Shown: positions 3,627 to 41,150, counted from the stretch's first letter. The stretch is DNA of 64,000 nucleotides from an uncultured Piscirickettsiaceae bacterium (GCA_913061075.1 CAJXSK010000003.1:124001-188000), one strand, 5' to 3'. The notes: a model not told the origin generated them from the sequence alone. Program-made: numbers and translations.

Positions 3627-4706
3627 TTAGTTAGAGCTTTCTAACTGCCTAGAATCCAAAAACTTATCGTAATGAATATGGTCAAGGCTGATATTTGCTT
3701 CTTCTAGTTTTACTAGAGTGGCATCAATCATTCCTGGTGGGCCACATAAATATGCATGGCTATCAGATAGGGGAAAGCCTGCTGTTTCATCGTTGATAAA
3801 ATCTGTGACTAAACCGCGTTTGCCGGCCCAGTCGGAATTTTCTGGTTCATCAGATAAGATAGGGACGAATTTAAATGTATTTGGCCATTGTTCAGTTAGG
3901 CTTTTCATTTCCTCTAAACAGTACAAATCGCGTTGTGCTCTTGCGCCAAATAAATAAGTTACAGGACGGTTAATTTTATTGGCGAGGGCATCATCTAAAA
4001 TGGCTTTTAAAGGCGCCATACCACTGCCACCAGCAACGCCTATTATCGGCGCCTCGGCTGTGCGTAACCAAAAGTTACCACTGGGGCCATGCAATTCAAA
4101 TGCTTCGCCAACGCGGTCTTTTTCAAATAACCATTCTGTGTAACTGCCGCCCGGTACGTTACGAACGTGAAATTTGAGCGATGTTTGGCCGCCTTGTACG
4201 GGCGCAGAAGCAAATGAATAACTACGATGGCGATCAAAACCGACAAGTCCAATGTCCGCAAATTGACCAGCAGTGAAAGAAATCGCGCGGTTAAGCTCTA
4301 CGGCTACTTCAGCAATGTCGTGTGTCAACATAGTGGTAGCAGTAATTGTTCCGTTGTATGTTTCAATCGCGTGGTTCGGCGCATGCGCATCGGCTTCTAG
4401 TTCAACAGTCACATCAGATTTTAATAAGGCCTGACAAGCTAAAATATAGCCGTCATCAATTTCGGCTTCAGATAATGTGTATGAAAAATCCATAATGGCT
4501 TTCACTTCACCTTCAACCAATTTGCATCGGCAGTTTCCGCAGGTGCCAACCGTACAATGATAAGGGAAATTAATGCCTTCGCTTAACGCTGTCTGTAATA
4601 GCGTATTGTTTTTGGGCACTTCAAACGTTTCGCCGGTTGGTTGGATTGTGGCTGATAAAGGTCCTTTTTTAGGACCGCCAAATAGGCTGCCAAATAGTTT
4701 TTTCAT
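3627..4706 (-). CDS. xylA: XylA-type NADH:ferredoxin reductase, electron-transfer component of hydrocarbon monooxygenase
   Basis: The 359-residue product joins an N-terminal plant-type [2Fe-2S] ferredoxin to an FAD/NAD(P)H reductase. Iron-sulfur ligands are C51, C56, C59 and C91 (C-x4-C-x2-C spacing in HCTVGTCGNC). The FAD motif is RHRSYSFASAP, the nucleotide motif is GVAGGSGMAPL, and CGPPGMID is near the C-terminus. Length and motif order match XylA of the TOL plasmid xylene monooxygenase. It passes electrons from NADH to the di-iron hydroxylase encoded immediately upstream (xylM, 18 bp away). The call as reductase is firm. The true substrate of the pair (toluene, xylene, cymene or an alkane) cannot be read from the sequence. 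Confidence 0.9.
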   Translation of the reverse strand: MKKLFGSLFGGPKKGPLSATIQPTGETFEVPKNNTLLQTALSEGINFPYHCTVGTCGNCRCKLVEGEVKAIMDFSYTLSEAEIDDGYILACQALLKSDVTVELEADAHAPNHAIETYNGTITATTMLTHDIAEVAVELNRAISFTAGQFADIGLVGFDRHRSYSFASAPVQGGQTSLKFHVRNVPGGSYTEWLFEKDRVGEAFELHGPSGNFWLRTAEAPIIGVAGGSGMAPLKAILDDALANKINRPVTYLFGARAQRDLYCLEEMKSLTEQWPNTFKFVPILSDEPENSDWAGKRGLVTDFINDETAGFPLSDSHAYLCGPPGMIDATLVKLEEANISLDHIHYDKFLDSRQLESSN

Positions 4707-4724
4707 AATGTAAGTAAGGTGTAA

Positions 4725-5828
4725 TTAAGCTTCAGACTCATTTAGCCAGTCTGGCCAGCCCGCTTTTTTATTGGCTTCACGTGCTAGCTCTTTTTCTTCA
4801 GCGGTTGCGTGGTTAAAGTCCCAATTTTTTAAACGGGGTTTGGCGATGTATTTAAACCAGATGGGGGGGATTAACCCTGCAGCGAAACACAAGAAAAGGC
4901 TTGGCATTTGTGGGCCATCAGCTTTGGGTTTTAGTTTGTGATAAGGCGCATAAGAATCCATATGGTGATCATTATGGTTTGTTATTTCAAATGAAATGGT
5001 TCTGCTCATTGGGTACAAATGATTCCAAATATGTTGAGAGTCGTACTTTTTACCTTCTACCCTGACTAAGCCGTAATGCTGGTAGTAGTTGAAGGCTTCA
5101 ACAAGCATTCTGCTAATCAACATGGCGCAAACAGCAACAACGGTAGCCGTTAAACCAGCAAACCAGAAAACAAGCCCTAGTAGCACAGCAATTTGATATA
5201 TGGCTTGCATGACCCGACCTGTGGGTGCGAATAAAGAGCGTTTAGTTTTTTTACAGCGCATGGATTCCATTTCAAAGAAATCTTTTAGGCTGCCAAAAAT
5301 AGCAACGGGGATAAACCTATATACGGTGTACCCACGTGGGCAAGTATCTGAATCTTTGGCTGTGCCTAGGTGTATATGATGGGTGTGCACATGAGCTACG
5401 TCACGTGTTGGGTCAAAGTAAAATGTACCAATCAACGTGGCAAAAAGCCGGCCTATTGAACTTCTGCGGTGCATTAACTCATGGTTAACAGGTAATGATG
5501 GAACAGCGCCTAACCAACCCAGTGAAAAGGCCGCACCGATTAATAAAATAAGCGACGGTGGTTGCCCTATTTGTTGCTCTAGCATCATCCAATGAACAAA
5601 AGCAGCATATAGCGCTACCATAAGAAAAAGGTGAAGGTAGAGAGGGAGTTCCGCTAGCCAATCAATGTTGGCGTCATATCGTTTTAAATCTTTTTTAGCG
5701 ATAACATCAATCATTAGTAGAGGGATGAATGTTGCTAAGCCTAGCCATACCCAAGCGTCTCCTAATAAAAACCCAATAATGCCAGCGATGACGATGGCAG
5801 CGCCTAAATAATATCTTAAATAATTCAT
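4725..5828 (-). CDS. xylM: XylM/AlkB-type membrane di-iron hydrocarbon hydroxylase
   Basis: This 367-residue integral membrane protein has the His clusters of the AlkB/XylM family: HELMH at 116-120, HVHTHH at 146-151, NYYQHYGLVR around H251 and NHNDHH at 284-289. The C-terminal AKPRLKNWDF and ANKKAGWP segments and the overall length resemble TOL-plasmid XylM more than AlkB. It should insert oxygen into a methyl group or terminal carbon of a hydrophobic hydrocarbon, using electrons from the reductase encoded next. The ATG at 5828 matches the family N-terminus, although no strong Shine-Dalgarno precedes it. No alcohol or aldehyde dehydrogenase gene (xylB or xylC type) is nearby, so the pathway must continue elsewhere. 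Confidence 0.9.
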   Translation of the reverse strand: MNYLRYYLGAAIVIAGIIGFLLGDAWVWLGLATFIPLLMIDVIAKKDLKRYDANIDWLAELPLYLHLFLMVALYAAFVHWMMLEQQIGQPPSLILLIGAAFSLGWLGAVPSLPVNHELMHRRSSIGRLFATLIGTFYFDPTRDVAHVHTHHIHLGTAKDSDTCPRGYTVYRFIPVAIFGSLKDFFEMESMRCKKTKRSLFAPTGRVMQAIYQIAVLLGLVFWFAGLTATVVAVCAMLISRMLVEAFNYYQHYGLVRVEGKKYDSQHIWNHLYPMSRTISFEITNHNDHHMDSYAPYHKLKPKADGPQMPSLFLCFAAGLIPPIWFKYIAKPRLKNWDFNHATAEEKELAREANKKAGWPDWLNESEA

Positions 5829-7318: not shown

Positions 7319-9784
<2,466 letters not shown>

Positions 9785-33364: not shown

Positions 33365-33524
33365 ACTTGAAATTCTACTTCTTAAATGATGACGGCGATT
33401 ATCGCATAGATACATATAAAGCATCAGGAAATATCTGAATGTTGTCTTTGAAACGTTATCGATTTGAGTGTTGAGCAATAGGTGTTTAGTTCTTCGAAAG
33501 GATATTTAGTTGAACTTGATGCTG

Positions 33525-33557
33525 TATAATCTGTCCTATAAAAAATAAATTAGGAGG
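33525..33557 (+). promoter_or_regulatory. -10 box and strong ribosome-binding site before the copper-redox operon
   Basis: A consensus TATAAT lies at 33525-33530, and AGGAGG at 33552-33557 sits 6 bp before the ATG at 33564. No good -35 is seen at 17 bp upstream, so an activator may be needed. This is the only obvious promoter for the five-gene run to 37900. Confidence 0.45.
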
Positions 33558-33563
33558 TTGTAA

Positions 33564-34169
33564 ATGTTTGCTGTATTTAGAATGATTGTTGTGTGTGCAT
33601 TATTGTCACTGTCAAGCCAGTTGTGGGCACATGGTGGCGTAATGAACGAAGGTAATGAATGTAAGTTGCGTGTTGGACCTTATGTGATGAATTTTTCTGG
33701 TTACCAGCCTGAAAACAACGTATCCAAACAGTTTTGTGACGATATGCCAACAGTTGGCAAATCGATTATTGTATTAGATTTCGTAGACCGTAAGCTTCGT
33801 GATATGACGGTTAACTTTAGAGTTATTAAAGCTGATGTTGCTGCGTTAGGTACTGAGGAAGATGGTATCGTGAATGAAGCAGAACTGGCACAAACACCGT
33901 TTTTTGAAATCCCAGCGAAACACTACCCTTCTGGAACGATGACAATTAGCCAAGCATTTTTAGAAAAAGGCCATTTTGTTGGGTATGTGGTTGTTGAAGG
34001 CGAAAATGAGAAATTTATTTCACGTTTTCCTTTTTCTGTAGGCTACCCTTCAGGTGGTATTCCTGCGGCGTTAAAAGTTCCAATTGCGGTATTTTTGGTG
34101 ATTATGGTGATTATGATTTGGATGGCACGTAGAAAACCAGTTGTTCTTAATGAAAAAAAAGAAGACTAA
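33564..34169 (+). CDS. exported membrane-anchored protein, possible copper-binding (family not recognised)
   Basis: The 201-residue product has a signal peptide whose likely cleavage (QLWA / HGG) would leave histidine as residue 1 of the mature protein. Two cysteines follow (NECKLR and KQFCDDM) that could form a disulfide. A beta-rich domain of about 140 residues comes next, then one C-terminal membrane helix (about 168-188) with a short charged tail. Mature N-terminal His is the hallmark of histidine-brace copper proteins (CopC, LPMO, PmoF families), and further His occur in AKHYPSG and EKGHFVG. Copper binding is inference, supported by the two copper oxidoreductase-type genes that follow. 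First gene of the operon. Confidence 0.65.
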   Translation: MFAVFRMIVVCALLSLSSQLWAHGGVMNEGNECKLRVGPYVMNFSGYQPENNVSKQFCDDMPTVGKSIIVLDFVDRKLRDMTVNFRVIKADVAALGTEEDGIVNEAELAQTPFFEIPAKHYPSGTMTISQAFLEKGHFVGYVVVEGENEKFISRFPFSVGYPSGGIPAALKVPIAVFLVIMVIMIWMARRKPVVLNEKKED

Positions 34170-34197
34170 TTATTTAAGTTAAGCGGCAAAGAATAGA

Positions 34198-35904
34198 ATG
34201 AAAAAATCCTCAATTATCGGATTGGTTTTAAGCGCGGTAGTACTCAGTACTATCGCGCTTTTTATATATAACCCATACTTTGTGTATTCCCGGTTTTTTG
34301 AATATACGGGTATGCCTGGTTATGAAGCGCCGCCAACAACTAAACCAAAGGTTGAATTAAGTGAGCAAGTGATGTGTAAGGAGGACTATCCCGAGTGGCG
34401 TAAAGAGTACACGATTGGGGGTATGGAGATTCAAGCATCTGATGCATGTAATCCAGATAACCCTTATGAAGTGGCGGCTTTTGTGCGAGGTACTAATAAC
34501 GTGATTATGCCTGTTCTAATGCAGACACAATTAGCGGACGATGCCGTCATTAAAACAGATGATCTTGATGGTGATGGTGATCCGGATAATATTATTATTA
34601 GGGTTGAAGTGGCAGAACTTAATGGTCGCTCGCCAGATGGTCCAGGCTTTATTCCAGGTTTTGAGATTGCTCCTGGGGTTAACCCTGGCGCTTGGGTATT
34701 CGCACCTAAAAGCCGTGGCATGTCGACGGTTAACCGTGATGACTTACAGGCTAATCATTTATTACGATTACCCTCAGCACCGATTCGTGTGGAAGCGGGC
34801 GATAACGTCACGTTAATTCTAGAAAATACGCATTACTTTCCGCATAGCATTCATTTACATGGGGTGGACCACATGTTTTCTAATAATGATGGTGTGCCTC
34901 AGACTAGCGAAAGAATGACCATGCCGGGTGAGCAGCATGTCTACAAAATGAAGCCACGTCATGCTGGTACCATGATGTATCACTGTCATGTTCAGGTTCA
35001 AGTACATATGATGATGGGGCTACAAGGTATTTTCGTTGTAGAAGAAAATAGGCCGAATAACTGGGTGCAAACATTCAATGTGGGCGCGGGCAAGGTAAGG
35101 CACCCTTCCGTTGCCGTGTTAGAAGATTATGCGCAAGAGTACGATTTGCATTATCAAGGAATCGACACGTCATTAAATAACATGATTCAGACGTCTAATG
35201 ACCCGCGCCAGTTAGCTAAAAAAATGAACCGAGTCTACGATATAACCGATGGTACAGACGATTACTTTATGTTGAATGGCCGTTCATTTCCATATACCTT
35301 GCGCGAGTCATTGATTACTGTTGAACCGAACCAGCACACAAAATTGCGTGTATTGAATGGCACGCCTGATGTCATAGCACTTCATTTACATGGGCATAAA
35401 GCGACCATAACTGCTTATGACGGGGTTGATGTGAATCCGGCTGCCCGCATCACTCGTGATGTATACGACTTCGCATCTGCGCAGCGGCTAGATTTGGACT
35501 TGTACACTAAGGATGATGGGCTACATAGCTATGGTGAAGGTGTTTGGTTAACGCACGACCATGCTGAGCGAGCGATTACAACGAATGGTATAAACCCTGG
35601 TGGCAATGTGTCGCAAATTGTATACCGTAAATACTTGAATAAAAATGCGATGGCAAATCTCGAAGGTGTAAATATCATGCCTTATTTTAGCCCTGAATAT
35701 TACGCAGGTGAATTACCATCGTGGAGCGCATCAGATCCGTTTGGTTATTGGGATGATGTTGCAGGGAGAAATGTGAGTACCTTTAAAAACATTGTTTTGG
35801 TTGTGGTTTTAGGTATGTTATTTGGCGTGTTGTTTTTGTTATTCAATGCGTTGTATGTCTTTTTTCACGACATGGCTGTTCGGTTAAAAGGTGAGCGGTC
35901 GTGA
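34198..35904 (+). CDS. membrane-anchored multicopper oxidase-like protein with atypical type-1 loop
   Basis: The 568-residue product has a membrane helix at each end (about 5-25 and 531-553) around a periplasmic two-cupredoxin body. Four HxH copper motifs are present: H219/H221 (HSIHLHG), H262/H264 (YHCHV), H396/H398 (ALHLHGHK) and H453/H455 (LTHDHAE). The only type-1 Cys, C263, is in the first cupredoxin domain, so it resembles two-domain oxidases of the 'type C' plan. The loop C263-x6-H270 is two residues longer than the usual C-x4-H. A calcium-type Asp loop (DLDGDGDPD, about 122-130) precedes domain 1. Substrate unknown. Its stop overlaps the next gene's GTG start. Confidence 0.8.
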   Translation: MKKSSIIGLVLSAVVLSTIALFIYNPYFVYSRFFEYTGMPGYEAPPTTKPKVELSEQVMCKEDYPEWRKEYTIGGMEIQASDACNPDNPYEVAAFVRGTNNVIMPVLMQTQLADDAVIKTDDLDGDGDPDNIIIRVEVAELNGRSPDGPGFIPGFEIAPGVNPGAWVFAPKSRGMSTVNRDDLQANHLLRLPSAPIRVEAGDNVTLILENTHYFPHSIHLHGVDHMFSNNDGVPQTSERMTMPGEQHVYKMKPRHAGTMMYHCHVQVQVHMMMGLQGIFVVEENRPNNWVQTFNVGAGKVRHPSVAVLEDYAQEYDLHYQGIDTSLNNMIQTSNDPRQLAKKMNRVYDITDGTDDYFMLNGRSFPYTLRESLITVEPNQHTKLRVLNGTPDVIALHLHGHKATITAYDGVDVNPAARITRDVYDFASAQRLDLDLYTKDDGLHSYGEGVWLTHDHAERAITTNGINPGGNVSQIVYRKYLNKNAMANLEGVNIMPYFSPEYYAGELPSWSASDPFGYWDDVAGRNVSTFKNIVLVVVLGMLFGVLFLLFNALYVFFHDMAVRLKGERS

Positions 35905-36536
35905 ATAAGGTCGTAAAAATAGCTATTTATATTGCTTTACTGATTAGTGTTACATCGCTAAGTCATGCTATGCGAATGGGCGAATGGGGTATGGTAATGA
36001 ATGAAAACCTTGAGCAGCTACCTCAGGGGTGTGATGCTGTAGCGGGTGAGATGGATGTCACGATAAAAGCGGGAAGGGAATACGCCAAGGAATTTCCAGG
36101 AACAATTTTTGGTTATAGTCAGCACGAATTTGATTTTCCTAAATGTACACGCGTGAATGTTACGTTTATAAATGAAGATGATATTCGTCACCAATTCATG
36201 ATTCATGGCTTGCCGACGTATTTACATCCTCAAGGTATGTTTCATCTTGAGTTGTACGGCAATGGTGAAACATCAGGCACGTTTATAACCCCTAATACCG
36301 AAGAAACCTATTTAGCCCATTGTGACCTTGCGCAACATATGGAAAAAGGCATGAAAGCCCAAGTTAAAGTGGGCGGTGGCAATGGAAATTTACCGTCTAT
36401 TCCCGGCATTTCAGGGCAATTGAATAAAGATGATTACGAATTGGATTTGAGTATTGAAAATACCCTTTTAATGCTTGTCTTGTTCATATTGGGTTTTTCT
36501 AGTTGTTTGTTTTGTTTTTTTTGGTTTAAAAAGTAA
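35901..36536 (+). CDS. membrane-anchored cupredoxin (blue copper protein)
   Basis: The 211-residue product starts at GTG 35901, overlapping the oxidase stop by 4 bp. It has a signal peptide (to about residue 23), a plastocyanin/azurin-like domain and a C-terminal membrane helix (about 188-208). Type-1 copper ligands are visible: H97 (or H102) in RHQFMIHG, then C141, H146 and M151 in HCDLAQHMEKGM, the standard C-x4-H-x4-M. Cysteines in PQGCDAV and FPKCTRV may form a disulfide. It is the likely electron donor or acceptor of the adjacent multicopper oxidase; that pairing is inferred from gene order. Confidence 0.82.
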   Translation: MNKVVKIAIYIALLISVTSLSHAMRMGEWGMVMNENLEQLPQGCDAVAGEMDVTIKAGREYAKEFPGTIFGYSQHEFDFPKCTRVNVTFINEDDIRHQFMIHGLPTYLHPQGMFHLELYGNGETSGTFITPNTEETYLAHCDLAQHMEKGMKAQVKVGGGNGNLPSIPGISGQLNKDDYELDLSIENTLLMLVLFILGFSSCLFCFFWFKK

Positions 36537-36551
36537 ACAGTTTCAGCCGTT

Positions 36552-36986
36552 ATGTTTGAAGGTTTGGTCGAGGCATACGGCACGTTTGGGCTTTTTATTA
36601 GCGCGTTTATTTCCTCTACAATTGCACCTGGCGGGTCAGAAGCCGTATTACTATACTTAGTTTCGAATGAGCCTGAAAATAGTTTATACCTTGTTTTAGT
36701 AGCGACCTTGGGGAATACATTGGGTGCGTTAACAACATATTACCTCGGCTATATAGCATCTTTGACTGAGTCATCGAAGAAACTCAATAAGAAATATTTT
36801 GATCAAGCACATAATGCGATTAACCGATATGGAAGTGTTTCTCTATTGTTTAGCTGGCTGCCGTTAATAGGCGATGTGCTTTGCTTGGCCGCTGGCTGGG
36901 TGAAACTAAATTTATTAACCTCATTAATCTTTATAACACTGGGTAAATTTGCTCGGTATTATCTATTATCACTAACTATCAGTTAA
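36552..36986 (+). CDS. YqaA/DedA-type small membrane protein
   Basis: The 144-residue hydrophobic product has about four membrane segments and family signatures FISSTIAPGGSEAVLLYLV, LGNTLGALTTYYLGY and the late FSWLPLIGDVLCLAAGW. It resembles YqaA, a small member of the DedA/VTT (SNARE-associated) superfamily, some members of which flip lipids or support membrane potential. It starts 15 bp after the cupredoxin gene and ends 5 bp before the methyltransferase gene. Its role beside copper enzymes is unknown. Confidence 0.8.
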   Translation: MFEGLVEAYGTFGLFISAFISSTIAPGGSEAVLLYLVSNEPENSLYLVLVATLGNTLGALTTYYLGYIASLTESSKKLNKKYFDQAHNAINRYGSVSLLFSWLPLIGDVLCLAAGWVKLNLLTSLIFITLGKFARYYLLSLTIS

Positions 36987-36991
36987 ACACC

Positions 36992-37900
36992 ATGCCTGAA
37001 ACGAGCGTAAACAAAAGAGTGGTAGAGGTGGATGTTGATCACCGTACGAATAGCCGAGAAGACCTAAGAAGTGATATTGCTGATTACTATGACCAAAGTT
37101 ATTGGGATTATAGGACGTCATGGCTAAACAGTAAAAATTTAGCAATTCACTACGGTTTTTGGTCTGATAAAACTCAATCGCACAGTGATTCGTTATTAGA
37201 AATGAATCAAGTGCTGGCTAGTCATTTGGATTTAAAACCGGGTGACCATGTGTTGGATGCAGGGTGTGGTATTGGTGGTAGTTCAATTTGGTTAGCGGAA
37301 AACTTTGGGGTTAAGGTAACGGGCATCACAATTTCACCCACACAAATTGATCAAGCGAACAAGAATGCGAAAAAACGCGGCGTGGATCACCTTGTAAATT
37401 TTAAGTTAGAAGATTATACGCAAACTTCATTCGCTAATGAAACGTTCGATCACATATGGGGATTAGAGAGTATTTGTTATGCATTAAAGAAGTCCGACTT
37501 TGTTAAAGAAGCTTATAGAGTGCTTAAGAAGGGCGGTTGTTTTGCAGTGGCCGACGGCTTTGCTAACAAGCAAGAAGTGACAGAAAAAGAGTGGCAACAC
37601 GTATTAAAAGTCTTGAATGGATGGTCAATGCCAAACATGTCAACACCAAGCCAATTTAAGGGATTTATGAAAGACAGTGGTTTTGCCGATATTCACTACC
37701 GAGATATTACTGAAAATACATTGCCATCATCGAAACGTTTATATTACACCGCGTTATTAACCTATCCGATGGAAAAAATAATGAGTTGGTTGCGGTTAAG
37801 AAGTTCGGTGCAAAGTGGAAATTTTCATGCTTGCTTTGGCCAGTACCATGTTCTACATAACGGCATTGGTTGTTATGGCTTATTTGCTGCTAAGAAATAG
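36992..37900 (+). CDS. class I SAM-dependent methyltransferase, small-molecule or lipid type
   Basis: The 302-residue product carries motif I VLDAGCGIGGSSIWLAE, then TGITISPTQIDQA, the motif II/III region FDHIWGLESICY, and VLKKGGCFAVAD. These residues resemble gamma-tocopherol, sterol C-24 and related prenyl-lipid or fatty-acid methyltransferases rather than RNA or protein methylases. The stretch YGFWSDKTQSHSDSL before motif I is also typical of that group. It is the last gene of the 33564-37900 run, 5 bp after the YqaA-like gene. Substrate is not known. Confidence 0.8.
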   Translation: MPETSVNKRVVEVDVDHRTNSREDLRSDIADYYDQSYWDYRTSWLNSKNLAIHYGFWSDKTQSHSDSLLEMNQVLASHLDLKPGDHVLDAGCGIGGSSIWLAENFGVKVTGITISPTQIDQANKNAKKRGVDHLVNFKLEDYTQTSFANETFDHIWGLESICYALKKSDFVKEAYRVLKKGGCFAVADGFANKQEVTEKEWQHVLKVLNGWSMPNMSTPSQFKGFMKDSGFADIHYRDITENTLPSSKRLYYTALLTYPMEKIMSWLRLRSSVQSGNFHACFGQYHVLHNGIGCYGLFAAKK

Positions 37901-37946: not shown

Positions 37947-38513
37947 TTAGAACCGGATCAAGGTTATATCTTTTTGGCGTTTTCGCCATTCTCTAAATGC
38001 TAGTACACTTAACGCAGTATCTTGATGAATCATAACCAGTTGTCGGTGCTCAGGTGAAATAGATATTTCACAATCGATGGTGATTTCTCGTTGATTAGAT
38101 TCCCGTATTTTCCATTTGTTTTTTACTTCAGTGATCTTTAACTGAGACGTATCTCCAAGTGTGTCGAGAGTTTGCTTGATTAGATTTTTACGGTGCTTTA
38201 AGCAACTGTCTGTAGGTAGTTCCCGCGGGCTTTTGGCTTTAATGCCGTAAATAATATGGGATTTAGGGGTGGTGGAATATTCGTATTGAACAAATCGTGC
38301 ATCAACGTTGTTAGGAATAAAGGTTATGGCCTTGTTTTCAACGAGGTAGCCTTCCGGTAATGTTTTGTCAACCGAACTAATGTTGATACCGAAAGCACCT
38401 TTTATGATGAAATTTTGATTTAAATCAACGTTAATCTCATCATTTACCTCACTGCAACCGATGAGTGTTGCTAACAGAATAATGCTCAGGAAAATCTTTG
38501 TAATGATCATCAT
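37947..38513 (-). CDS. putative lipoprotein, paralogue of the upstream neighbour
   Basis: The 188-residue product starts at the ATG complement of 38511-38513, giving a lipoprotein signal with lipobox TLIGC. The mature part shares the sequence frame of its neighbour: FGIN, LPEGYL, IIYGIKA, LDTLGD, KWKI and REW at corresponding positions. Two conserved cysteines (TDSCLKHR and TIDCEIS) may pair. It is the last gene of a minus-strand run facing the copper-redox operon. No family recognised; an open frame extends 14 codons upstream but gives a worse signal peptide. Confidence 0.72.
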   Translation of the reverse strand: MMIITKIFLSIILLATLIGCSEVNDEINVDLNQNFIIKGAFGINISSVDKTLPEGYLVENKAITFIPNNVDARFVQYEYSTTPKSHIIYGIKAKSPRELPTDSCLKHRKNLIKQTLDTLGDTSQLKITEVKNKWKIRESNQREITIDCEISISPEHRQLVMIHQDTALSVLAFREWRKRQKDITLIRF

Positions 38514-38573
38514 TTGGTAAGTTGGTCGTTGGTGGTTTGCTTGGTTTGGACACATAAATCATGTCAGTGAGCG

Positions 38574-39131
38574 TTACTTTCCTTTAACTATATCGTCCTG
38601 ATGTTTGCTCCATTCAACAAAGCTTAACTTGCTCAATTTCGCGTCAGTGTAAGTCATGACTAACTGGTGTGAATCTGCCACTAAAGTGTGTTTGCATTCA
38701 ATTATGATCGAGCGATTGTTACCTTCAGTTATTTTCCACTGGTTGCCATCTTCGTTAACACTAAGAGTTGATATGTCGCCCAGTGCTGCTAATGTTTCCG
38801 CAATGATGTCGTTACGATTTTCTTTGCAGCTCGCGATGCTCAGCTCTTTAGAGCTTGCCACTTTGATGCCGTAAATCATATGTGTGTTGGGTGTTACTGA
38901 AATAGTATATGAGCTGAAGTGTTTATGCACAGGGTTTGGGGTGAAATCATACGCTTTGTTATCGTCAAGGTAACCCTCAGGTAAGCCTTGGGCTTTATCA
39001 GCTAGTTTAAGGCCAAATACACCAGTAATTTTGGCGTTTTTTGTTGAATTATATGTGGCCGTGTCATCGCCGCAACCGATAAGAAAAGAGGTTAATAACG
39101 TGACGAGTAACATGGGTTTAATAAAGTTCAT
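38574..39131 (-). CDS. putative lipoprotein, tandem paralogue
   Basis: The 185-residue product has the lipobox FLIGC after a clear hydrophobic stretch. It is a tandem duplicate of the next gene, sharing GVFGLKL/GAFGINI, LPEGYL, MIYGIKV, LAALGD, QWKI and the cysteine pair (IASCKEN and IIECKHT). ATG 39131 begins 5 bp after the PQQ-dehydrogenase stop; ATG 39149 would overlap that gene and lengthen the signal, and is possible. Function unknown. Confidence 0.72.
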   Translation of the reverse strand: MNFIKPMLLVTLLTSFLIGCGDDTATYNSTKNAKITGVFGLKLADKAQGLPEGYLDDNKAYDFTPNPVHKHFSSYTISVTPNTHMIYGIKVASSKELSIASCKENRNDIIAETLAALGDISTLSVNEDGNQWKITEGNNRSIIIECKHTLVADSHQLVMTYTDAKLSKLSFVEWSKHQDDIVKGK

Positions 39132-39135
39132 AATC

Positions 39136-40296
39136 TTAGGGTAGCTCATTGTTTTTTATTGAAGTAATCTTATAGATTCTACCTGTATAGTCGTCGCTTA
39201 AGTAAATATTTCCTTGCTTATCTTCTGCTAAATCAACTGGGCGGCCAATAACTGTTCCATCGCGTTCAAAACCCGTTATATAGTCATGTTCGGTAATATC
39301 ACCATCCGTTGAAAAAGTTAATGCAACAACTTTGTACCCCGATTTTTCAGACCGATTCCAAGACCCATGTAAGGCGACTAAAGCAGTATTTTTCAAGTGT
39401 GGGTTGTTTCTTAAAAACAGTATGCTTAGTGGTGCGCTGTGGGCAGGTAAATTGTAGCTGGAAGGGGACGTTTTTAAGCCAGGTGGTTTTTTATCATTAT
39501 CAGACACGTTGTTACCGTATTCATACGGCCATCCATAATGCGCACCCTTGGTGATTTGATTTAATTCCTCTGGTGGAAGGTCGTCACCGAGCATATCGCG
39601 ACCATTATCAACGCCGTACAATAAATCTGTGTTTGGTTGCCAATCAAATCCAACGGTGTTTCTTAAGCCACTTGCGTAAACAACTTCATTTTTACCGTCT
39701 AAGTCATATTGCATAATGCTGGCACGTTTTGGCGTCTCTTCATTGCAAACGTTACAGCTTGAACCGGCACTGACATACAGTTTGTTATCTGGGCCAACTT
39801 TTACGGTTCGACTAGAATGACTGCCACCACCAGGAAAGCTATCCCTAACAATGTAGTGTGGCGTTCCAATGAATTTACGTTCTTTGGCATTATAACGAAT
39901 GCGTAAAATCGCGTCCGTTTCGGCAATATAAAGCCAGCCTTCATGTAAATGAATACCATGGGGCCTATTTAAGTCTTTTAGTAAGAGCTTGCTTCCATCG
40001 GATACATTATCTTGATTAGCATCGTTGTAGATAAGTTTTAATGTGCCTTCATTAGGAATGGACACGATTAGGTCGCCAGTTTCCGTTATAGCTAATGCAC
40101 GTGCATTGGGGGTGTTTTCGGCAAATGTAGAAATAGTAAACCGGTTATCGGTCGTTAATCGGCTAACAATTTCTTCAGATGTGATTGAATTGGCGAACTT
40201 AATTGGCAAATCGAATGTAAATCTTTCAGGCAGGAATAACCAAAACAAACCACCCGCAATGGCCATATACAATATGCTCTTTAGATGATGGATCAT
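39136..40296 (-). CDS. PQQ-dependent sugar dehydrogenase-like beta-propeller, membrane-anchored
   Basis: The 386-residue product has one N-terminal membrane anchor (about 8-22) and a six-bladed beta-propeller of the sorbosone/glucose dehydrogenase type. Signatures include NRPHGIHLHEGWLYIAE, GGGSHSSRTVKVGPD, LYVSAGSSCNVC, ASGLRNTVGFDWQP and GAHYGWPYEYG. These families oxidise aldoses in the periplasm with pyrroloquinoline quinone, but many homologues have no proven PQQ activity. No pqq biosynthesis genes lie in the window. Its ATG overlaps the esterase stop by 4 bp. Confidence 0.85.
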   Translation of the reverse strand: MIHHLKSILYMAIAGGLFWLFLPERFTFDLPIKFANSITSEEIVSRLTTDNRFTISTFAENTPNARALAITETGDLIVSIPNEGTLKLIYNDANQDNVSDGSKLLLKDLNRPHGIHLHEGWLYIAETDAILRIRYNAKERKFIGTPHYIVRDSFPGGGSHSSRTVKVGPDNKLYVSAGSSCNVCNEETPKRASIMQYDLDGKNEVVYASGLRNTVGFDWQPNTDLLYGVDNGRDMLGDDLPPEELNQITKGAHYGWPYEYGNNVSDNDKKPPGLKTSPSSYNLPAHSAPLSILFLRNNPHLKNTALVALHGSWNRSEKSGYKVVALTFSTDGDITEHDYITGFERDGTVIGRPVDLAEDKQGNIYLSDDYTGRIYKITSIKNNELP

Positions 40297-41150
40297 TGCG
40301 CTATATGGTCATGATTTAAAAAGAAGTTAATAAGCGTTGTGTTTTTGTTTGGCCAGACGGAGTGGCTACCAGGGCCTTCACAATAAAACGTTTTTGATGA
40401 ATCGGGGCATGATTGGTATGTTTGGCAGCCAAATTGGTCAGGCTCAGATTTTTCGTTACTGCATTGGTTACAATTTGCCCACCAATCGGCGGCTTGTTGA
40501 CCAAAATCTTTAAAATGAGAATCATCTTTATTATGGAACACCATCACGGGTAATGGTGTAGGGCAAGCATATTGTTTAAGGCTTTCTTTGTCCATACCTG
40601 CGGCACTGGGCGCAATGGCAGTGGGTTTGGTCTTAGAGTCAGGTAAAAATGTTAAGGCGTTTGTGATTGTTCCACCATCTGAATGGCCGGTAAAGTATAT
40701 TTGAGATGGGTCAATACACCATTTTTCTTGAACACTTTTTGGAATGGTGGAGAGTTTTTCAATGGCCTTGAGTGACATGCGTAACTTGTTTGCATAGGCG
40801 ATAATAAAGCCAGCTTGTGTTGCTTCTTGGGTTAAATGAACATGCCGTTCCGACTTGTTAGCGCTGGTTCCAGCAGGCGCATATACAACAATGAGCGGGT
40901 GTGGGTATTGTTTGTTGTAATTTGCTGGTGTTCTAACGTTGTATGTGACACCAACGTTCGTTTCAATGTCGTCAGTAGCGCCAGCTTTGCCCGTTAACGT
41001 TGAAGTTGAGCAGGCAGAAGCGCCATTGTCGGGATACGTAAAGTCAGCCGATTTTAATAAGGCAGGATCTATAGGCGGCCCTAAAAACACAAAAAAACCA
41101 ATGAGGGCGACTACAAATAATAGTACGATTCCTAGCAATATTTTAAACAT
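40293..41150 (-). CDS. LpqC / PHB-depolymerase-like exported esterase
   Basis: The 285-residue product has an N-terminal membrane or signal segment (MFKILLGIVLLFVVALIGFF region) and an alpha/beta-hydrolase fold. The nucleophile elbow is GHSDGG, a candidate acid is in HNKDDSHF, and a histidine is in GSHSVWP. At least eight cysteines in the mature part suggest disulfides and a periplasmic or surface location. The family includes poly(3-hydroxyalkanoate) depolymerases, feruloyl esterases and LpqC. Two phasin genes lie about 1.5 kb upstream on the same strand. Substrate is uncertain. Confidence 0.8.
   Translation of the reverse strand: MFKILLGIVLLFVVALIGFFVFLGPPIDPALLKSADFTYPDNGASACSTSTLTGKAGATDDIETNVGVTYNVRTPANYNKQYPHPLIVVYAPAGTSANKSERHVHLTQEATQAGFIIAYANKLRMSLKAIEKLSTIPKSVQEKWCIDPSQIYFTGHSDGGTITNALTFLPDSKTKPTAIAPSAAGMDKESLKQYACPTPLPVMVFHNKDDSHFKDFGQQAADWWANCNQCSNEKSEPDQFGCQTYQSCPDSSKTFYCEGPGSHSVWPNKNTTLINFFLNHDHIAQ

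Follow-up and report, generated by a model that had tools for sequence, protein, structure and literature searches.

A PmoD, multicopper oxidase and cupredoxin gene unit in Cycloclasticus, a possible accessory to its copper membrane monooxygenase

The 64,000-nucleotide stretch of DNA analyzed here (hereafter the window; GCA_913061075.1, CAJXSK010000003.1:124001-188000) comes from a genome of Cycloclasticus, an oil-eating marine genus, and carries at positions 33564–37900 five open reading frames (ORFs), A to E, all on the plus strand and with the same coordinates as in an initial annotation. Gene A, left unnamed there, can be assigned as a PmoD/AmoD homologue; B encodes a complete multicopper oxidase of the two-domain type, C a cupredoxin, D a VTT-domain membrane protein and E a methyltransferase. 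Our best explanation, in which we place about even confidence, is that A–E form an accessory unit of the Cycloclasticus copper membrane monooxygenase (CuMMO), a short-chain hydrocarbon monooxygenase, and support it by membrane-anchored periplasmic handling of copper and redox state. It is carried by the identity of A, the intact copper sites of B and C, an ancestral place behind pmoCAB with a promoter-like box of the unit's own, and co-occurrence with CuMMO within the genus, all as read from the genomes compared here.

Profile searches of Pfam and NCBIfam gave no match to A, and a PDB sequence search matched it to the Methylocystis PmoD (PDB 6cpd) with an E-value of 9.5e-14 over residues 30–160. 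Cysteines C33 and C58 are invariant in 45 sequences, and the C-terminus carries a hydrophobic segment that probably forms a membrane helix. The motif is C-x8-M-xn-C, with C-x8-M-N, and does not match the C-x7-M-x-H-xn-C pattern of CuA-forming PmoD. With its two invariant cysteines, signal peptide, C-terminal membrane helix and copper-binding motif, A resembles the C-x8-M-xn-C class of PmoD, which is commonly encoded near multicopper oxidases and of which a representative binds copper without forming CuA (Fisher et al. 2018, PMC6189053). In Methylococcus capsulatus, the pmoD gene MCA2130, a possible orthologue of A, lies beside a multicopper oxidase gene and is reported, at second hand (PMC6688271), to be down-regulated without copper; this is the main functional hint in the literature. 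According to the initial annotation, the combination of genes was not known as a named system. Because A is a PmoD, the combination is not wholly unknown: PmoD beside a multicopper oxidase is known in methanotrophs (PMC6189053, PMC6688271), with CuMMO as the connection. Unlike the known pairs, the present one is followed by genes for a cupredoxin, a VTT protein and a methyltransferase, and in relatives the whole unit lies behind pmoCAB.

Mature A plausibly starts with a histidine, after predicted cleavage between LWA and HGG. Among the A sequences, 35 of the 42 in CuMMO genomes carry an HGG or HRG motif at most 16 residues before the first conserved cysteine, compared with 5 of the 16 in genomes where no CuMMO was detected. 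This set comprised the A-type matches in the surveyed loci, seven hand-labelled A query proteins and six sequences taken by coordinate from the class search, leaving out the duplicate L147; L021b, which falls outside the cysteine pattern, was scored negative though it contains HGN. The difference may reflect a single event, since the group without CuMMO is one clade in the B tree. Other PmoD-like genes were seen as well. At L021 (G000:C7, 5593–9818), a second pmoCAB cluster is flanked by two further PmoD paralogues, of which one shares the C-x8-M-H of AmoD, and a protein encoded beside the cluster weakly matches PEP-CTERM. At G167:C11:13740-14237, in a genome without a PF04744 or PF02461 match, there is a further PmoD-like match (E 6.3e-21) that is absent from the ORF list.

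The PDB sequence search matched B to the blue copper oxidase of Nitrosomonas europaea (3g5w; E 2e-25), and structural comparison gave Z-scores of 27.4 to 3g5w and the metagenomic laccase 2zwn and 24.2 to 9cck. Both cupredoxin domains and the ligands align with 3g5w and 2zwn; unlike these, B is extended by a further region at the N-terminus, is anchored twice in the membrane and has a leucine at the axial type-1 position. Its type-1 ligands (H216, C263, H270) and trinuclear ligands (H219, H221, H262, H264, H396, H398, H453, H455) make up the complete multicopper oxidase set, and these His and Cys residues have a conservation of 1.00 in 94 sequences. The AlphaFold model has an N-terminal helix (residues 3–24) and a C-terminal helix (528–567), bearing out the doubly anchored oxidase of the initial annotation. 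The PDB sequence search gave no match to C up to E 1, and its fold was therefore examined by model. AlphaFold predicted (pLDDT 91.9) a cupredoxin fold with a C-terminal helix at 185–210, with a Z-score of 10.3 to 9cck and a likeness to blue copper proteins, auracyanin and AcoP among them. The type-1 ligands of C (H97, C141, H146, M151) have a conservation of 0.97–1.00 in 78 sequences, and several C homologues carry His/Met-rich tails. C is thus the anchored cupredoxin that had been proposed, and the copper ligands of both proteins are invariant or nearly so in homologues. The 9cck protein of Nitrosopumilus maritimus, an ammonia oxidizer with a CuMMO, likewise couples an oxidase to a cupredoxin; there they form one chain, whereas here they are two anchored proteins.

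The gaps between the five genes are 28, −4, 15 and 5 bp. Cycloclasticus relatives show comparable close packing, including the short B–C overlap, and because this spacing recurs it is not due to chance. Besides the window, A–E are found together in ten Cycloclasticus genomes (L067/L147, which are one genome, and L148 to L156); L157 and L158 show B to E at loci cut by contig ends. The tight operon with copper proteins described at the outset therefore holds, by coordinates, gaps and recurrence, with all five genes together in ten further loci.

In seven of these genomes (L067, L148–L153) the order is pmo-A-B-C-D-E. Four loci (L148, L149, L151, L153) are colinear, running from the genes that adjoin pmoCAB on contig C1 of the window genome, through pmoCAB and A–E, to the genes downstream of A–E in the window; in L067, L150 and L152 the pmo genes are directly ahead of A–E. 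The window genome has two pmoCAB clusters, on contigs C1 and C7, and the ancestral run is cut between pmoB and A: on C1, pmoCAB is followed by mla-type genes, and in the window a caxA-type gene precedes A–E. These gene names are sequence readings, with an additional Na_Ca_ex match for caxA. In ten relatives caxA adjoins mlaF, and in G330 it adjoins A, as in the window. A rearrangement has thus parted A–E from pmoCAB in the window genome, the ancestral position having been behind pmoCAB. An assembly error was judged unlikely as the cause, because the caxA–A junction is shared by G330 and neither breakpoint coincides with a contig end. Three other genomes (G306, G314, G321) keep A–E and lack pmoCAB at the locus, with pmoB elsewhere in the genome. 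In one of them (L154, G306, 7319–9637), A is cut short and B is divided between two frames, by decay or sequencing error.

The pmoB–A spacer of the seven relatives holds an intrinsic terminator, with folding energies of −15.5 to −19.9 kcal/mol, followed by a box, GAACTAAATnnnnTATAATnTGTC, that is well kept in six of the seven and weak in L153. In G314 the box was not recognizable. The window keeps the box without the terminator, and the terminator is kept after pmoB on C1. A matrix scan of the window gave a sole strong match, at 29.9, with the next at 13.1; the matrix was built from ten sites including the window's own, so this score is not independent. A sigma-70 scan of the region gave fewer sites than shuffled sequence did, and the conserved box, which is without a consensus −35, was not among them. 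A single transcript from pmoCAB to E was rejected as the default reading because the terminator parts pmoB from A in seven relatives. Judged indirectly, from the terminator, the conserved box and the gene spacing, A–E are best read as their own transcription unit.

The same 13 of the 18 Cycloclasticus genomes carry pmoB, C and strong B matches. At E 0.001, 199 of the 201 Methylococcales genomes had a B match, some of these weak. Among 274 Gammaproteobacteria, B (1e-50) and pmoB were each found in nine genomes and together in seven (Fisher p 6e-11), and E (1e-40) in seven, five of them with pmoB (p 2e-7), at E-value thresholds of our choosing and with no account taken of phylogeny. The order A-B-C(-D) recurs in other families. 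A multicopper oxidase is mentioned in neither the Khadka 2018 nor the Cycloclasticus 2024 paper.

The trio A-B-C was also found in genomes without a PF04744 or PF02461 match, namely at fifteen named loci, selected for an A similar to that of L027 with no pmo gene nearby, and in G044; at L130 only A-B is seen, where the contig ends. Nitrosomonas supralitoralis, an ammonia oxidizer, must have a CuMMO; its genome gave no PF04744 match either, showing that a draft genome can miss one. Most of the trio genomes other than G044 are metagenome-assembled or single-cell genomes of unstated completeness. For this reason G044, a single contig of 2.4 Mb with a rated completeness of 99%, makes the strongest case, and the fact that all sixteen genomes agree lends it weight. 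In the B tree, a quick tree with long branches, the fifteen loci cluster together (97) next to pmo-linked sequences of marine origin. Haem-copper oxidase or haem A genes lie near the trio in 4 of 16: cox genes in L027, L116 and L123, and in L108 a UbiA-family gene that may encode haem A farnesyltransferase. Elsewhere the neighboring genes include a cox operon and a thioredoxin-like gene. One Nitrosomonas locus (L100, 7899–13806) has a B-C pair followed by COX2-, COX1- and SCO1-type genes. All genomes with PmoD have been stated to contain CuMMO (Fisher et al. 2018, PMC6189053). The sixteen genomes go against that statement and set the trio apart from the known PmoD class; because it exists where no CuMMO was found, its link to CuMMO is not obligatory.

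D scored 42.2 bits against PF09335 (cut-off 33.9), placing it among the VTT-domain proteins, and 26.7 bits against the model for the undecaprenyl phosphate transporter UptA (NF052604, cut-off 250). It follows C in Cycloclasticus and several Methylococcales loci. E scored 73.1 bits against PF08241 (cut-off 21.2), as a class I S-adenosylmethionine (SAM) methyltransferase, and is related to small-molecule and terpenoid methyltransferases (3bus, 2e-24). It fell below the NCBIfam equivalog cut-offs for cyclopropane fatty acid synthase (NF008686, 69.2 of 400 bits), sarcosine/dimethylglycine methyltransferase (NF041675, 88.8 of 550) and geranyl diphosphate methyltransferase (NF041943, 89.9 of 400). 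E is the final gene of the unit in Cycloclasticus loci, and its neighbors in other genomes showed no shared pathway.

The features of the unit are collected in Table 1. Downstream of it (37947–41150) lie two similar lipoprotein-like genes, a gene for a GSDH-type (PF07995) protein and an esterase-like gene, relatives of which are found near pmo genes in L023 and L134. At 3627–5828 of the window, a putative AlkB-like membrane hydroxylase gene adjoins a ferredoxin/reductase gene.

Table 1. Positions and supporting evidence for genes A–E and their upstream signals in the window.
Feature	Position	Strand	Evidence
Promoter-like box GAACTxxATnnnnTATAATnTGTC, −10 TATAAT at 33525–33530	33509–33538	+	Alignment with pmoB–A spacers of relatives and G330 spacer upstream of A
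Ribosome-binding site AGGAGG of gene A	33552–33557	+	Sequence reading
A, PmoD/AmoD homologue, 201 aa	33564–34169	+	PDB 6cpd match; signal peptide, C33-x8-M42-xn-C58, C-terminal membrane helix
B, membrane-anchored multicopper oxidase, 568 aa	34198–35904	+	Pfam Cu-oxidase families; 3g5w match; ligands
C, membrane-anchored cupredoxin, 211 aa, GTG start	35901–36536	+	PF07731 3.4e-07; ligands; AlphaFold fold
D, short VTT-domain (DedA/YqaA-like) membrane protein, 144 aa	36552–36986	+	PF09335
E, class I SAM-dependent methyltransferase, 302 aa	36992–37900	+	PF08241 2.9e-20; 3bus 2e-24

In the role that we propose, A, B and C would be anchored in the inner membrane, facing the periplasm, and would maintain a supply of copper in a redox state suited to assembling or maintaining the monooxygenase. 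A and C would bind copper, and B would oxidize Cu(I), or a Cu(I)-linked reductant, with O2; D and E, which the initial annotation suggested may modify or move a lipid or quinone, might conceivably alter the membrane or a lipid-like cofactor. Where relatives have no CuMMO, the trio would support different membrane copper enzymes, haem-copper oxidase for example. The membrane-bound periplasmic redox or copper-handling group put forward in the initial annotation is supported, and we favor copper and redox handling for CuMMO because of the PmoD class, the neighboring genes and the His/Met-rich tails of C homologues. That G306, G314 and G321 retain A–E and another CuMMO, though the linked pmoCAB is gone, also favors it.

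Several points weigh against this role, among them the trio genomes without a detected CuMMO. The roles given to A–E are readings of sequence, from which a cuprous oxidase activity of B could not be told. The axial type-1 position of B is Leu275, aligned to a methionine in 3g5w, and the tail of the window's C is only modestly Met-rich, with 3 His+Met in the 30 residues scored. The overlap p-values take no account of phylogeny, and all five Cycloclasticus genomes that lack CuMMO may belong to a single clade; cultivated isolates of the genus are reported to be one clade without short-chain alkane genes (PMC12510462). Finally, electron transfer would account just as well for a type-1 cupredoxin beside an oxidase. 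The main rival is accordingly a relay in which C would shuttle electrons between the quinol or cytochrome pool, PmoD and the oxidase or CuMMO, either supplying CuMMO with reductant or bleeding electrons to O2. The intact type-1 site of C, its resemblance to auracyanin and AcoP, the completeness of B, the anchoring of all three proteins and the respiratory oxidase genes that neighbor the trio elsewhere are consistent with such a relay. However, A does not have the motif on which CuA formation in PmoD depends, and the tails of several C homologues, rich in His and Met, are typical of copper binding; we regard a relay as rather unlikely.

A general detoxification of copper, of the CueO/CopA type and without connection to the monooxygenase, would account for a multicopper oxidase with small copper proteins, and B has a weak likeness to CopA. 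It scored far under the cut-offs of the CopA/CueO models, however (TIGR01480, 45.4 bits against 478.95; NF008205, 24.3 against 525), the unit is positioned behind pmoCAB, and the five Cycloclasticus genomes that lack CuMMO have neither C nor a strong B match, making detoxification improbable. Less probable still is nitrogen-oxide chemistry, with nitrite, NO or hydroxylamine as the substrate of B, as for copper proteins of ammonia oxidizers. The best solved relative of B by sequence is the N. europaea protein 3g5w, and B-C pairs were found in Nitrosomonas loci, one beside COX2-COX1-SCO1. Because all eight trinuclear histidines are kept, however, B is an oxidase and not a NirK, which was ruled out; moreover, Cycloclasticus and methanotrophs are not known to grow on ammonia. 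That A–E are unrelated neighbors merely sharing a strand is hardly credible: nothing was seen in its favor, ten more Cycloclasticus loci keep the order and close spacing, other families keep A-B-C(-D), and chance clustering was rejected on these grounds.

Extended pmo and amo operons, such as pmoCAB-pmoD-copC-copD-PCuAC and amoCABED (PMC6189053), also attach copper accessory genes with pmoD to a monooxygenase operon; the Cycloclasticus unit differs in its accessory set and in the terminator between pmoCAB and A–E. More broadly, PmoD, a membrane multicopper oxidase and a cupredoxin could tentatively be seen as a general periplasmic loading or redox-conditioning system for membrane copper enzymes, which would be copper monooxygenases in some bacteria and haem-copper oxidases in others. 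The wider interest lies in the function of PmoD and in the routes by which copper and electrons arrive at the particulate methane, ammonia and hydrocarbon monooxygenases, enzymes that shape the cycling of methane and of oil spills. The unit described here names two likely partner proteins of PmoD and provides a conserved candidate promoter, and its occurrence apart from the monooxygenase, or where none was found, offers natural cases that could separate a monooxygenase-specific role from a general role in copper handling.

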